Assembly: GCF_029395475.1 (NCBI RefSeq)
Contig: NZ_CP113917.1
Span: forward strand, 1,426,001-1,490,000
Direction: 5' to 3'
Source: Bifidobacterium sp. ESL0775
Lineage (GTDB): Bacteria > Actinomycetota > Actinomycetes > Actinomycetales > Bifidobacteriaceae
Length of the DNA stretch: 64,000 nucleotides
Part shown: piece after piece, positions 1,764 through 26,552 of the stretch
Layout of the letters: every line of letters starts with the position of its first letter
Position numbering within the stretch: the first letter of the stretch is position 1
The notes under the pieces: generated by a model
What the model was told of the DNA's origin: nothing
The model's input: only the letters and a program-made list of their open reading frames with translations
The model's database searches: none
Translations under genes and position numbers: made by a program

Positions 1764-3833
1764 TCATTCCCGTGTGGTGGTTTTGGCGATGGGTCCGAGT
1801 GTCTGCCAGATGCGGTCGACGATGGCCTGCATGCCCTTGTCTCCGGGGTGTCGGGCCAGGCTGGGGTCGTCGATGGTGTGGGTGGTGCGGTCGGGCCAGG
1901 TCACGGTCGCGCCCATGGAGGCCTGGTTGTCCTTGGTGTTGAGGTCGCCGATGGTCAGGTGCCAGCCGCCCACGCCTGCCATGGCGTCGTCGATGGCGGG
2001 GTTGAGCGAGGGCTGGTCGAACCAGCCGCTGACGAACATGACGACCGCGCCGCGGGCCTTGGCGCGGATGGCGCGGGCCAGCGGGCCTACCTGCGAGCGG
2101 AACGCCGCGCGGCGCTGGTCGTTGTTGACGTTGTCGCCGAGCTGGATGAGCACGAGGTCCTCGTCGCCGTGCAGGGTGGCGGCGAACGCGTCGGCCCGCG
2201 CCTGTGTGGCGTCGACCTCGAAGCCGTACCCGCTGGATGTGGTGACCGTGTCGCCGGTCTTGTCCCCGTCGTCCCAGCAATGGTAGGTGACGCCGGGGTT
2301 GATGCCGTGCAGTTTCCCGGCGAGCAGGCTCACCCAGTCGTGTTCGGGGTCGCTGGCTGCCATGCCCGTGGTCAGGCTGTTGCCGAGCACGCGCACCCGT
2401 GTGATCGTCTTGGAGAGCGCCTGAATGGCGGGCGTGCCGTCGTTGCCGATCGTGATCCTCCATTTCGCCCCGTCGGGCGAGGTCAGGAGCTGTTCGGGTA
2501 CGGGCTTGGTCGCGAGCGCCTCGAGGCGTTGGAGGGTGCCGCGCAGGTCGCCGTCGTCGGCCCATTGGTCCTGGATGTCGATGGTGGCGGTGAGGTGGTA
2601 GTCGCCGTCCTCGGTTCCGGTGATCCAGATCCTGTCGAGGGGCGCGCCGGCGTGGGCGGATATCTCGTCGAGGTCGAGCCTGGTGTCGTGCCGGCCTGCC
2701 GGCACGTTGACGCCCATGGGCGGTTCGTGGAGTTTCCCGGAGGTGTCGAGGACGATGGGGCTGATGTTCAGGGGCTTGTCGCAGTCGGTCTGGATGGTGA
2801 GCCGGCCCATGTCCGAACCGACCATCGCGGTGATGCCGCCGAATGTCGATACGCCGTTGCGTTTGCCGCCCGTGACCGTCCATGTGGCGGTGGTGCCGTC
2901 GATGGAGGCGAGGGTCCCGGTGGTGACCGGCCCGAACAGGCCGACGGCCCGGGGCAGGCATGCGGGTTTGACCATGTCGATCTGGATGCCGTGGCTGTTC
3001 TCCCCGCCGAGCCACCGGTCGGCCACGGCGGCGAGTGTGACTCGGAACGCCGTGCCCTGTTCCGACGGGTCGGTCGGCCATTGCACGACGAGCCAGCGGT
3101 TGCCTGCGGGGTTCGACCCGGAGCACACCACGCTGGCCGAGAGATCGTCGTAGGAGGCCATCCGGCAGTCGAGCGCCCGGTCGGTGATGCCCTTGCCCGT
3201 GTTGGCGTCCCACACGCTCACCCTGACACGCGTGTCCATGCGTCCCGTCCCCCGGAGCAGCAGTTTCGGCCTGGGGCTGATGGTCACGCGCGCGTTGACC
3301 AGCGCTGGGGCGCGCAGGATCGGGACCATCACCACCACGCCCGTGTCGCCCGCGCCAGGCGTGGCGGCGGCGGTGTCCGAAGAGACGCCCGCCACCGTGT
3401 TATGCCTCGAGAAATCGTTGTCGGTGAACCCGATGGCGCGCCTCACGTCGAGGATCGTGTCGCTGCGGGCCACGAGCCCCTCGCCGATGCCGGCCGTGGC
3501 GTTGAGCCTCGCGCCGGTGAGCTCGCGGCCGGGCACCTTGTCGTCGGTGACCGCGCCCTGCTGTATCGCGCCGGCGTACACCGACGAGTCGCCCACCACG
3601 GCCACGTTCCCGCCGCTCATCGCCAGGCGCGCGTCCTGCGCGAGGTTCCTCAGGCTCACCTGCCCGGTGCCGTCCAGGTCGACCTTGCCGTCCACCAGGC
3701 CGCGCAGCTCGGCCGAGGCCCTGACCCCGGCCTCCCGGCCCGCCGCGCCGCCCGCGCCCGCGGCCACCGCGCGCACATCCGAGGAGCACGGGTCCACCGC
3801 CTCCACCACGTCCACGATCTCTTCGCTCATCAT
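1764..3833 (-). CDS. Tail fibre or tail tip protein with C-terminal SGNH hydrolase domain
   Basis: A 689-residue protein. The N-terminal 150 residues are rich in Gly, Ala and Val with a sequence around ELRGLVDGKVDLDGTGQ typical of phage receptor-binding proteins; the middle looks like beta-sandwich material. From about residue 480 to the end it resembles an SGNH/GDSL esterase: block I as LGNSLTTG (GNS in place of GDS), block III as IQLGDNVNN, and a C-terminal ARHPGDKG segment offering the catalytic His. Such domains remove acyl groups from polysaccharides, so it may deacylate host surface glycans during adsorption. AAGGAG precedes the start. The domain call rests on short motifs and is moderately sure; the tail role follows from its place between tail tip and lysis genes. 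Confidence 0.7.
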   Translation of the reverse strand: MMSEEIVDVVEAVDPCSSDVRAVAAGAGGAAGREAGVRASAELRGLVDGKVDLDGTGQVSLRNLAQDARLAMSGGNVAVVGDSSVYAGAIQQGAVTDDKVPGRELTGARLNATAGIGEGLVARSDTILDVRRAIGFTDNDFSRHNTVAGVSSDTAAATPGAGDTGVVVMVPILRAPALVNARVTISPRPKLLLRGTGRMDTRVRVSVWDANTGKGITDRALDCRMASYDDLSASVVCSGSNPAGNRWLVVQWPTDPSEQGTAFRVTLAAVADRWLGGENSHGIQIDMVKPACLPRAVGLFGPVTTGTLASIDGTTATWTVTGGKRNGVSTFGGITAMVGSDMGRLTIQTDCDKPLNISPIVLDTSGKLHEPPMGVNVPAGRHDTRLDLDEISAHAGAPLDRIWITGTEDGDYHLTATIDIQDQWADDGDLRGTLQRLEALATKPVPEQLLTSPDGAKWRITIGNDGTPAIQALSKTITRVRVLGNSLTTGMAASDPEHDWVSLLAGKLHGINPGVTYHCWDDGDKTGDTVTTSSGYGFEVDATQARADAFAATLHGDEDLVLIQLGDNVNNDQRRAAFRSQVGPLARAIRAKARGAVVMFVSGWFDQPSLNPAIDDAMAGVGGWHLTIGDLNTKDNQASMGATVTWPDRTTHTIDDPSLARHPGDKGMQAIVDRIWQTLGPIAKTTTRE

Positions 3834-3857
3834 CCACTCTCCTTATCGATTGCCTGT

Positions 3858-4220
3858 TCAGTCGTTCAACGCCCAGTAGCCCCAAGCCAGCGTGCGCACC
3901 GTACCGCCGTCCGGGCTCTCGACCACGCACTTCCACCGGCCCGACCGCCGCTGCGACCACACGGGGCCCGTGAAGGCCGACGGCGGGATATCGGCCACCG
4001 CGTACCCGTCCGAGGTCATCTCCCCGCACGGCTGCGAATACCACGGCTCCGACCCGACTGGCGGGTACAGCTGTACCCGCCCGGACCAGGCGGACAGGTC
4101 GACCGTCCTGATTGAGCCGTCCTTCAGGCTCCGCTGCCTCCACCGGCCGCCCAGACAGTTGCCGTCGCCCCGCACCAGGCGCACGTCCTTCCGGCCGACC
4201 GGCCTCCCATAGACACCCAT
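3858..4220 (-). CDS. Small tail-module protein, beta-rich, unknown
   Basis: About 120 residues, no membrane segment. The C-terminal half (around TSDGYAVADIPPSAFTG and RSGRWKCVVESPDG) has the pattern of a small beta-sandwich seen in phage tail-tip or baseplate accessory proteins. The ATG at 4220 is preferred because AGGAGG lies six bases upstream; a GTG one codon earlier sits too close. It lies between two minor tail genes, so it is probably a virion component. I cannot assign a family. Confidence 0.55.
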   Translation of the reverse strand: MGVYGRPVGRKDVRLVRGDGNCLGGRWRQRSLKDGSIRTVDLSAWSGRVQLYPPVGSEPWYSQPCGEMTSDGYAVADIPPSAFTGPVWSQRRSGRWKCVVESPDGGTVRTLAWGYWALND

Positions 4221-23025: not shown

Positions 23026-25341
23026 TTAGTTGCGATGTTGGCTGATGGTGTTCTGCACCGAATTCCAGATTGTATTCAGCTCACTGTCCGGCAATCCGGA
23101 CGCGCGTCCACGCTCGTAGAATTCGATTCTGATATTGGCCTCGTTCTCGGGATGGTTCAACAGCCGCCCCAACAGCCACTTGAACATCGTGTCGTTGCGC
23201 TGGCCCACAGGAATCAGCGACATGTCAGGCGTGCCAGTCTTGCTGTTGCCGACAGGTTCGGCCAACAGCTCGTCAAGCGACGACAACGAAGTGTCCGCGC
23301 GTTTTGCTGATACGAACGTTCGCGGCTTTTCATCGCATCCTTCGACGTAGCCGTTGTCTTCGAGCCATTGGGCCATTTTTGGGGGCATGACTGGCACTTG
23401 GTTGTCGGGCATGTCGAGGAGCCGGTAATCGCCGTTATGGGTGTGGCTGCCGGGGCCGATGACGTAGCCTTTGCGCTCGCAACGGATGTCCACGGGGATG
23501 CCGTTGGAATGCACAGAGTTTTTCAGCGTGCCCATGAGTTCGGCGGGTAGGGCGTAGTAGGCGTGGACTCCGCCGGATGGCGTGCCGACGAGATACGTTG
23601 TAGGGAAATCCTCGGAACCGTATTTGCCGATTTCCTGGTTGAGGACGTTCCATCCATCTGCGGTCTTGCCGTCCTTGCTTTTGTCCAAGTCGATGATGGC
23701 CATGCCCTTGTTGGGCACAACGGCATAGGATTCGGTATTCGGCCGGAGGCTGGTGTCGAGATTCTTGTCTTCGGTGAGTCGCTTCCAGTTTTTGGCGACT
23801 TTCTGTTCGGCGGGGACGAAATCGCAGTTGAATCCCATCGTGTTCGGCAACGGAACCGGGTCGGCCTCGATAGGCTGGGGAATATCAGGGGTGTCGTCGA
23901 TTTGTTTGGCGAGCTGTTCACGGTCATGCTCGTAGGCTTTGCGGTAGGGGGCGAACCTTACTTCATCCTTCACGGCAAGAATACGAATGGATGTTCCTTG
24001 TTCGGGGATCCATTTCACTCCGCCTCGGGTGAGTCCGAATCGTGCAAGTAGGTCTCGTTGTTCGTAGCGTTTCAGACTTTCCAGCATGCTGCTGGGTGCG
24101 TATCCGTTGGCGCATATCGCGTTGATGATGGATTGTTCGAGGTCGGTGACATCGTTGGCGCTGCCGACGCTGACGTCGTCGAACGGGTTTTCGCCGTGGT
24201 TTTCCCAGAGTTTGCAGCTGGCCATGATGAACGGCGCGGCCCCGTATTGTTGACGGAAGTCCAGTAGTGGTTGGAATTCCTGTGGTTTCCTGCCGTCTTT
24301 CATGCGGATATAGGCGAAGCGGCGTGCAACGGCGGCGCTCATGGTGGTGATGACAGGGTTGTTGGTAGCGACGATGAAGGTGCATTTGGGCGTGAAGCTG
24401 ACGGCGTTCTCTCCGATCCTTCGGGCGGTGACGCTGTCGCCAGTCGAGATTTTCTTCAGGTAGGTGAGCTGGTCTATGCCGATGGTGTCGGCGTCCTCGT
24501 CGTAGGCCCAGAGGGCTCCGATGAGTTTGCCGGTCTCCTGCTGGGTATCGAACCCGCCCGAGCCTCGCCGTCCTCCAAGGATTTTCTGGGAGTCCACGGC
24601 CACTGCAAGTCCGGGGAACGAACTGGCGAGTGTGCCGAGGAGGATGCCTTTGCCGTTGCCCCCGTCCCCATAAAGCACGTAGGTGAGGTGCTTGTAGGGT
24701 TCGAGCAGTGGAGTGGCGAACATCCTGGCAAGATTCATGGCCGAGTGTTCGTCTTCGGTGATGTCGCGCATGAAGGCGACGGCCTGTGTGGCGAGTCCGG
24801 CATCAAAAGGCTGGTCGATGGTCAGCTCGTATGATTCGTCGAACATCTGGTCGCCGGTATGGTAGCGGACGATACCGTTGGTTTCGCGTTTGAAGGCGGT
24901 GTCCTGAAATTTGATGCCGTGGCGGACGCGTTTGTCGAGTTTGCGGCATTCGACGACGAGCTGCTGGTTCCAGGGCAGGTAGGCTTTGTTACTTTTGACG
25001 TGATATTCGGCTTCGAGGCTGGTGATCGCATGCCAGGTGTCGAGTAACTGGTTGTTGCCGGTCTGGTCGACATCGCGAACATAGAGCGTGTGATCGTCGT
25101 CGCCAAGCAGCAGGGAGTCGTTGCGATAATCCCATAACGCCTTGGCGTATCCGTCATCGGCGTATGGCGTGGGGTTTTTGCCCCACGTGTTCCTCGGAAT
25201 CTCCACGGTCTGGCCGACTCTGTCGATGAACGTGTTCGACGTGTTCTCAAATCTGGCCACTTTCATATTCAGCAGCAGATCGGGAACATGCTGAGGACCA
25301 TTGGGGATCTTCGAGCAGGAATGATGGTAGAAAGCGTCCAT
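23026..25341 (-). CDS. Replicative SF3 helicase-PrimPol fusion with permuted domain order
   Basis: A 771-residue replication protein. The N-terminal half is a D5/SF3-type helicase: Walker A GDGGNGKG (225-232), Walker B WAYDED (278-283), sensor ATNN (325-328) and arginine finger pair at 340-341. The C-terminal part is an archaeo-eukaryotic primase fold: AIIDLDKSKDG (Asp551, Asp553), TPSGGVHAYY (587-596) and VDIRCERKGYVIGPG (617-631). A PriCT-like helical tail (WLLGRLLNHPENEANIRIEF) ends it. In known PrimPol-D5 proteins the primase comes first; here it is second. The ribosome site (AAGGA) lies in one of the iterons upstream. It should unwind and prime phage DNA. Confidence 0.85.
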   Translation of the reverse strand: MDAFYHHSCSKIPNGPQHVPDLLLNMKVARFENTSNTFIDRVGQTVEIPRNTWGKNPTPYADDGYAKALWDYRNDSLLLGDDDHTLYVRDVDQTGNNQLLDTWHAITSLEAEYHVKSNKAYLPWNQQLVVECRKLDKRVRHGIKFQDTAFKRETNGIVRYHTGDQMFDESYELTIDQPFDAGLATQAVAFMRDITEDEHSAMNLARMFATPLLEPYKHLTYVLYGDGGNGKGILLGTLASSFPGLAVAVDSQKILGGRRGSGGFDTQQETGKLIGALWAYDEDADTIGIDQLTYLKKISTGDSVTARRIGENAVSFTPKCTFIVATNNPVITTMSAAVARRFAYIRMKDGRKPQEFQPLLDFRQQYGAAPFIMASCKLWENHGENPFDDVSVGSANDVTDLEQSIINAICANGYAPSSMLESLKRYEQRDLLARFGLTRGGVKWIPEQGTSIRILAVKDEVRFAPYRKAYEHDREQLAKQIDDTPDIPQPIEADPVPLPNTMGFNCDFVPAEQKVAKNWKRLTEDKNLDTSLRPNTESYAVVPNKGMAIIDLDKSKDGKTADGWNVLNQEIGKYGSEDFPTTYLVGTPSGGVHAYYALPAELMGTLKNSVHSNGIPVDIRCERKGYVIGPGSHTHNGDYRLLDMPDNQVPVMPPKMAQWLEDNGYVEGCDEKPRTFVSAKRADTSLSSLDELLAEPVGNSKTGTPDMSLIPVGQRNDTMFKWLLGRLLNHPENEANIRIEFYERGRASGLPDSELNTIWNSVQNTISQHRN

Positions 25342-25351
25342 TTTATACAGT

Positions 25352-25573
25352 CCTTACGCTCCTTACGCTTTCCTTACGCTGTAGCGTAAGGCATGTCAGC
25401 CCAATAATTTCAATGCTTTTCACTATGTTCCTTACGCTCTTACGGTTCTTATAGGGGTGATACGCAATAAATAAAAGGTATATATGCTCAGCAGCGTAAG
25501 GAATCAGCGCCGGAATGTTCCGGAATCGTTGATATTTCAATGGTTTCATTTCCTTACGCTTCTTCCTTACGCT
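25352..25573. repeat. Iteron array, candidate phage replication origin
   Basis: The 9-mer CCTTACGCT occurs at 25352-25360, 25361-25369, 25372-25380, 25430-25438, 25552-25560 and 25565-25573, and in the opposite orientation (AGCGTAAGG) at 25383-25391 and 25493-25501. A 14-bp palindrome CCGGAATGTTCCGG lies at 25510-25523, and AT-rich sequence fills the gap. The whole 25342-25625 interval is non-coding. Repeat arrays beside an initiator-helicase gene are typical of theta-type origins, but binding sites for a repressor are an alternative. Confidence 0.8.
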
Positions 25574-25625
25574 GCTGGGGTTTATTCTCTGAATTTGTTG
25601 AATTCAAAGGGGTTAGATTTTTGGT

Positions 25626-26552
25626 TTAGAAGTCTCCGACTCCGAATTCGTCCTCGCTGCCCTGGTTGGGTTGGAGCACGTTGACGACAGTGGTTTCAGG
25701 CAATCCGGTGAGCGCGGCGATCTCCTGCGGGCTCTTGCCGGCCGCCTGGAGCTGCTGCAGTTGCTGCAGGTTGATCTGGGGGCCGGATTGCATCGGCGGG
25801 TTCGCTGCTGGCTGGGGCTGCGGCTGGTATTGCTGGCCTTGCGTCTGCGGGGCCGTGTTGGCATGCTGGAACTGCTGGTTCTGGGCTGGCGCGGGCTGTT
25901 GCATTGTGGGCTGTTGGAATTGGCCTTGCTGTTGCGGCGTGTAGCCGGTCTGCTGGTTTTGCATTGGTTGGGTTGGCTGGGGGTTGAGGAGGCTGTCGGG
26001 GCTGTTGGCGGGTTGGATGACGAAGCTGTAGAGTTTGGCCGGCATGGCGGGGTTCTTGCTTTGCGGGTCGGCTCCGACGTAGGTCTCGGTGATGGTGTCG
26101 CCGGGCTTGGGGGCCTTCTTGATTCCCGCGTTGCGCATGGCTTCGCGGAACGCCTTCAATTGGACTCCCCAACCTTTCACGTAGAGGCTGCGTCGGCCGT
26201 CATCCTCGTCCACACTGGGGTCGCGAAGATTGGTCTGGATGACCATATGGATTTCCTGCATTGGTCTTCCATCATTCCAGAAAGAAGGCTGCTGAGTGTT
26301 GAAGTCGCGCATCTGCTGGGTCTCGATGAGCTCGAGCGTTCCGGTGACCGAACTGCCGGGCTGGCTGTCGCGGCCGAAGAAGGATTTGGCGCCGCTGCCG
26401 GAGAGCAGATCGTCCAATCCGCTCAGCTGGCCTCCCTGTGGCTGCGCAGGCTGTTGGCGTTGCTGGCCTTGCTGCGGCCACGTGTTGCCGCCGCCGTATT
26501 GGGGCTGCTGGCCGTACTGGTTGTTGTACTGCTGGTTGTTGTTTGCGAACAT
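25626..26552 (-). CDS. SSB-like single-stranded DNA-binding protein with Q-rich linker
   Basis: 308 residues from the ATG at 26552 (GGAGAA upstream). After a Gln/Asn/Gly-rich lead, residues about 55-185 carry an OB-type pattern found in actinophage SSB-like proteins: SGSGAKSFFGRDSQPGSSV, RSLYVKGWGVQLKAFREA, and KPGDTITETYVGADPQ. A long Gln, Pro and Asn-rich linker of about 100 residues follows, and the end is acidic with a terminal Phe (EDEFGVGDF), like the partner-binding tip of bacterial SSB. It lies between the nuclease and the origin, so it probably protects ssDNA in replication and recombination. Confidence 0.75.
   Translation of the reverse strand: MFANNNQQYNNQYGQQPQYGGGNTWPQQGQQRQQPAQPQGGQLSGLDDLLSGSGAKSFFGRDSQPGSSVTGTLELIETQQMRDFNTQQPSFWNDGRPMQEIHMVIQTNLRDPSVDEDDGRRSLYVKGWGVQLKAFREAMRNAGIKKAPKPGDTITETYVGADPQSKNPAMPAKLYSFVIQPANSPDSLLNPQPTQPMQNQQTGYTPQQQGQFQQPTMQQPAPAQNQQFQHANTAPQTQGQQYQPQPQPAANPPMQSGPQINLQQLQQLQAAGKSPQEIAALTGLPETTVVNVLQPNQGSEDEFGVGDF

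Follow-up and report, generated by a model that had tools for sequence, protein, structure and literature searches.

A prophage helicase-primase of Bifidobacterium with the SF3 helicase ahead of PrimPol, and an adjoining repeat array as its candidate replication origin

Helicase-primases of superfamily 3 (SF3) are model replication engines, and in the well studied ones the primase is N-terminal to the helicase. Is the opposite order, predicted for a gene of Bifidobacterium sp. ESL0775, real, how may it have arisen, and where would such a protein act? The window analysed is a stretch of 64,000 nucleotides (contig NZ_CP113917.1, positions 1,426,001 to 1,490,000), to which all coordinates refer. 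Terminase, integrase and antirepressor genes within it identify the setting as a prophage. The evidence given below suggests that this single chain probably serves a Bifidobacterium-type prophage as replication initiator, helicase and primase, with CCTTACGCT repeats as origin, and that its domain order most likely came about by module fusion. The gene and the domains of its product are the following.

23026..25341, minus strand: helicase-first helicase-primase gene, 771 aa, ATG start (uninterrupted reading frame, Pfam, structure model)
24802..25341, minus strand: N-terminal alpha/beta domain, residues 1-180 (structure model; without Pfam match)
24196..24801, minus strand: AAA+ SF3-type helicase domain, residues 181-382 (Pfam, TIGR01613, alignment, structure model, fold search)
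23971..24144, minus strand: predicted winged-helix domain, residues 400-457, candidate origin-binding domain (secondary structure of the model)
23347..23844, minus strand: PrimPol domain of the archaeo-eukaryotic primase (AEP) type, residues 500-665, with D551, D553, H593 and D618 (Pfam, alignment, structure model, fold search)
23032..23214, minus strand: helical C-terminal domain (CTD), residues 710-770, PriCT-1-like (model; weak profile match)

The first-pass annotation had placed a helicase in the first half of the protein and a primase in the second, and this arrangement held. The only Pfam matches at E up to 10 were DUF5906 (PF19263) at residues 223-329 (E 5.5e-10, over the gathering score) and Prim-Pol (PF09250) at residues 519-653 of 771 (E 3.4e-13, 50.8 bits against a cut-off of 22.8), so that the AEP is not N-terminal as it is in ORF904; D5_N gave no match in this search. 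TIGR01613 (phage/plasmid primase, P4 family) aligned to residues 186-349 with 58.6 bits, under its cut-off of 108.7. Among the PHROGs, the C-terminal parts of DNA primase families aligned to residues 151-350, and residues 36-269 of the 704 of phrog_695 (DNA polymerase/primase), near the N-terminus of that family, aligned to 516-767. The structure models were confident, with pLDDT (predicted local distance difference test) values of 88 and 91. For the helicase region, the SaPI5 primase-helicase was the top structural match. The second half, expected to adopt an AEP fold, did so in the model with pLDDT 91, and its best structural matches were pRN1 PrimPol.

The motifs named earlier were located at their expected positions. 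Walker A (225-232), Walker B (around 281-283), the sensor 1 residue N327 and the arginine finger region R340/R341 lie within an AAA+ fold, as is typical of SF3 helicases according to alignment, model and fold search, while model and alignment place the DxD pair D551/D553, H593 and the third acidic residue D618 in the AEP fold. Their conservation was evaluated on relatives collected by a protein search (152 matches, of which the best 120 were taken) and a profile search (95 matches, 20 of them new). These 141 distinct proteins, i.e. 140 database clusters and the query, are close relatives by construction. An alignment of 121 rows including the query was made from these listed matches, and the 113 rows longer than 700 aa were counted. 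K231, N327, R340, R341, D551, D553, H593 and D618 were identical in all 113, and D281 in 112. Domain content, domain order and the conservation of the catalytic residues are thus shown at the level of sequence and model. A decayed primase half, leaving a protein that works as a helicase only, is very improbable: the primase is absent from 10 of the 141 proteins, some of which are perhaps cut by contig ends, but the four AEP residues are invariant in every long row and the AEP domain was modelled mostly at pLDDT above 90.

It was found that the helicase-PrimPol-CTD order is kept in 126 of these 141 listed proteins. Five carried helicase and PrimPol without the CTD, and ten, among them proteins of 481-718 aa, the helicase only. 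The CTD followed PrimPol in all 126 cases and preceded it in none. The search for homologues in either order that the first-pass annotation had proposed thus returned no PrimPol-first protein among these closer relatives. An IMG/VR scan (A1) gave the same picture, since all 18 core open reading frames (ORFs) holding both domains were helicase-first. In four further core ORFs the helicase was alone; two of them are split genes (L126, L132), one ends at the contig end (L134), and for one the primase part lies in another ORF (L141). A second scan (A2), of distant PrimPol relatives, gave six ORFs (two alike) with PrimPol before a detected helicase and 61 without a helicase match to these profiles. 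The same gene was seen broken by stop codons in three loci (L002, L005, L037), which may reflect gene decay or errors in the sequence.

Within the searched data the family hardly extends beyond Bifidobacteriaceae. Named sources among the listed matches (n = 14) were 12 Bifidobacterium, one Alloscardovia and one Granulicoccus, the last a partial protein whose origin was not checked. The genome profile searches scored no more than two candidates in each genome, and weak relatives may therefore be missed. In 189 genomes of the same family some match was found in 33, of which 21 had a helicase-before-PrimPol ORF. In a sample of 396 genomes of the order, 51 gave some match; besides the genome itself, a strong match was obtained only in another genome of the same genus (helicase part matched, no primase half found within 16 kb around it), the next best being E 9.8e-14 over one domain. 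In the phylum sample (396 genomes, some match in 23), the best match apart from the own genome was partial, E 1.3e-18, in the primase half. A search of 50,697 phage records gave nine matches, eight of them Bifidobacterium phages, and six covered at least 80% of the query; two more divergent helicase-first queries gave 12 and 9 matches, none over 80%. Plasmid records gave seven partial matches, none reaching 80% query coverage. The earlier proposal of a family limited to bifidobacterial or actinobacterial phages is largely borne out in the data searched. These results confirm that the helicase-first order is real and conserved in one family.

The order was compared with that of known systems. 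In pRN1 ORF904 (Prim-Pol clade, PF09250) an AEP with a helical part shares a chain with a helicase, as it does here, but the AEP is N-terminal and the helicase C-terminal (PMC4538821). The same reversal separates the present protein from the D5-type enzymes (vaccinia D5, mpox E5, African swine fever virus (ASFV) PrimPol), which also join AEP and SF3 helicase in one chain and ranked high in the fold search; their primase is N-terminal (D5 helicase residues 323-785, PMC9611036). The SaPI5 primase-helicase, Cch2 and P4-type proteins (TIGR01613 / D5_N) include the closest structural match of the helicase and have origin repeats near the gene (PMC7581432). The repeats of the staphylococcal pathogenicity islands (SaPIs) lie downstream of rep, while those described below are upstream of the gene, and P4-type proteins combine SF3 with D5_N, which Pfam did not detect here, TIGR01613 being below its cut-off. 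InversePrim (PrimPol-PV1) likewise has an unusual domain order around the AEP, but its PriCT-1 precedes the primase and its helicase is RepA-type (PMC5862659), whereas the present protein has a PriCT-like domain after the primase and an SF3-type helicase. An SF3 helicase ahead of an AEP in one chain is found in GP55 of lactococcal phage 1706, a protein of 1317 aa that runs helicase, PriS-like, aHD, PolB and has more than 1000 homologues (PMC12205980). The first-pass statement that known fusions are PrimPol-first consequently stands as a rule with GP55 as exception. GP55 carries a PriS-like domain, aHD and a family B polymerase; the present protein of 771 aa has Prim-Pol and a PriCT-like domain and gave no PolB match at E up to 10.

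Member proteins are already known, with database names such as 'bifunctional DNA primase/polymerase' or 'SF3 helicase domain-containing protein'. In the open-access literature searched no title or abstract described this family, and the helicase-PrimPol-CTD architecture appears to be undescribed there.

Two routes to this order were weighed, a fusion of modules and the circular permutation proposed at first pass. Profiles of five parts of the protein were aligned with 21 ORFs whose SF3 domain is C-terminal (16 of actinobacterial genomes, five on viral contigs), in 10 of which a PrimPol or PriCT-like match ahead of the helicase was seen directly. The helicase profile matched at template 492-684 (99.3%, E 1.5e-20), the PrimPol profile at 89-188 (97.1%, E 4.9e-11) and, weakly, the CTD profile at 238-303, after PrimPol (E 0.0069). 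This indicates that the catalytic modules are common to both and swapped, with PrimPol keeping its PriCT-like follower. These matches are what a true permutation of a PrimPol-first ancestor, through gene fission and rejoining or a tandem duplication losing its outer halves, would leave, the inner PrimPol-PriCT order being kept. But no profile match in the 21 ORFs was obtained for the N-terminal domain or for the winged-helix region in the middle of the protein, so that the remainder was not simply rotated.

The trees point the same way. In the helicase tree, a branch of 2.17 (support 99, from a quick search with long branches flagged) set 57 rows, the family and its nearest kin, apart from 28 far rows; a PrimPol or PriCT-like match ahead of the helicase was detected in only three of these 28. 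The PrimPol tree separated 49 rows, comprising fused and stand-alone primases of the same host family, from 73 others (support 98). Some stand-alone primases may themselves be products of a fission of the fused gene; L035, L036 and L056 group with the fused PrimPols, though not at a resolved position, and L039 starts at the edge of a contig. In three genomes of the host family (L054:9768-11773, L055:521-2514 and L056:9806-11817) a stand-alone PrimPol-PriCT gene of about 300 aa adjoins an AAA_25, RepA/DnaB-like helicase gene; these primases are 37-38% identical to the C-terminal half, i.e. the same primase module next to another helicase type. Because of the partial module match, the tree splits, the stand-alone primases and the helicase-only proteins, module fusion is tentatively ranked above circular permutation as the most likely origin. 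What stands of the permutation proposal is that the PrimPol and SF3 modules match PrimPol-first enzymes; fusion explains the order equally well, the permutation is unproven, and we consider it unlikely. By module fusion, a helicase gene would have gained a PrimPol-PriCT module at its 3' end, and phages of Bifidobacteriaceae would afterwards have passed on the fused gene as a single family.

Where the protein may act is suggested by the DNA just upstream of the gene, in which a repeat array absent from the first-pass annotation was found in the present analysis.

25342..25625, no strand assigned: gap of 284 bp to the next upstream gene, candidate replication origin (ORF list)
25352..25573, no strand assigned: iteron-like array of eight exact copies of CCTTACGCT, six on the plus and two on the minus strand (word counts, shuffles)

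The gap holds only short ORFs; the longest inside it has 68 aa (25343-25549, minus strand), and one of 66 aa on the plus strand extends past it. All eight copies of CCTTACGCT in the window fall inside the gap, against a shuffle expectation of 0.13 (maximum 2). Genome-wide (2.26 Mb) there are 18 copies, the other ten being scattered. The same pattern read backwards has 17 genome copies, which shows that the clustering and not the abundance is unusual. A scan of 25300-25700 found no promoter and one terminator-like site, near chance. Clustered short repeats beside an initiator gene are the mark of an iteron origin, and on these grounds the array is a probable replication origin.

Other loci of the family were compared in the 320 bp upstream of the gene. 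Clusters above all 60 shuffles were present in 8 of 23 loci (L006, the present gene L007, L008, L009, L028, L030, L031 and L032), and L029 exceeded all shuffles but one. The repeat words differ between these loci, while the position is kept and the spacing is similar in L006-L009. The core CGTAAG of the present locus was 14.7-fold enriched upstream in 28 other loci (20 copies), and strong arrays lie slightly further upstream in L059 and L034/L060. Several results weigh against the reading as an origin. No array was found in 14 of the 23 loci in the 320-bp test. In a 700-bp test with 12 shuffles and a stricter margin, 12 of 30 non-redundant helicase-first loci exceeded the shuffles by the set margin, and in three of these (L006, L020, L143) the top word formed no array just before the gene or resembled coding repeats. 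Four loci (L028, L031, L135, L140) account for 18 of the 20 CGTAAG copies. Finally, a subgroup near 50% identity (L001, L003, L004, L012, L013, L016, L026, L124) has no array in this upstream stretch.

A whole-locus search of that subgroup located a few repeat clusters away from the gene, as in L013 (10158-10373) and L016 (3848-3976), which may be relocated origins or unrelated; the search gave no tie to replication. In L115 (Bifidobacterium phage BP742P1), inspection of the sequence and the cluster scan showed GTTAACGNATG-like repeats at regular steps upstream of the gene and several CCTACAT words near the start (about 3490-3900 and the last 300 bp before 4890); this locus did not pass the 700-bp test.

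The repeats could instead serve gene control, as operators for some regulator or as sites at which the protein represses its own gene. Only 10 bp separate the nearest copy from the start codon, and the array has copies in both orientations, as such sites might. An operator rarely has as many as eight copies over 222 bp, the extent of the present array. The arrays of L006-L009, moreover, hold their position and similar spacing while the sequence changes, and comparable repeats are described as origins in SaPIs and as a putative origin in staphylococcal cassette chromosome (SCC) elements (PMC7581432). Sites of control in place of an origin are for these reasons rather doubtful; the array may also serve as operator and origin at once.

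If the array is an origin, a part of the protein should recognise it. From the elements of the model (helices 400-412, 417-420 and 425-435, strands 437-445 and 450-457) we infer that residues 400-457 form a winged helix with a DNA-binding role. Cch2 contacts the repeats of its putative origin with its C-terminal domain, and the same is described for SaPI Rep (PMC7581432); repeat binding is assigned to the winged helix on this basis. It would bind the CCTTACGCT repeats just upstream of its gene, helicase rings would form at this site and open the duplex, the ring would then travel along one strand, and PrimPol, tethered at its C-terminal side, would prime as template appears. Co-variation of winged helix and repeats was mixed in the four pairs compared. 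Between the query and P0002, whose repeats differ, the winged helix diverges faster than the rest (15/58 against 73/642, p 0.003). The comparison with P0004, whose repeats also differ, speaks against such co-variation, the winged helix being no faster (20/58 against 202/642, p 0.37).

Some further observations concern the gene and its surroundings. The top fold match in the viral library, BFVD A0A6G5YN77, is an unnamed viral protein of 959 aa with 806 aligned columns, possibly with both halves in the same order. A sequence search of solved structures gave a lone match to MreC (E 0.19), which was discarded as chance. Residues 701-771 share only 50% identity with P0001, against 82-100% elsewhere, and the DNA match to the relative in L009 stops at 23143; both observations suggest a mosaic 3' end (23026-23143). 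The upstream neighbour gene (25626-26513), possibly a partner of the replication module, belongs to phrog_1911, of unknown function, and has a Q-rich tail.

Tentatively, and with more doubt than confidence, these proteins could be set apart as a class of their own in which a single protein starts replication, found almost only in phages of Bifidobacteriaceae. An origin-binding winged helix would lie between helicase and primase, the primase would thus occupy the end of the SF3 ring opposite to that used in D5/ASFV/ORF904-type enzymes, and each lineage would have its own repeat array changing with the winged helix. It is a matter of speculation that the C-terminal placement of the primase alters the strand or the side that is primed. 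Nevertheless, this conserved family, with its primase on the other side of the helicase, offers a test of whether priming depends on where the primase sits with respect to the moving ring. Few replicons of Bifidobacterium are understood, and the gene and its repeats provide a compact candidate pair of origin and initiator for this genus, in which the adjoining array makes the replication role directly testable.
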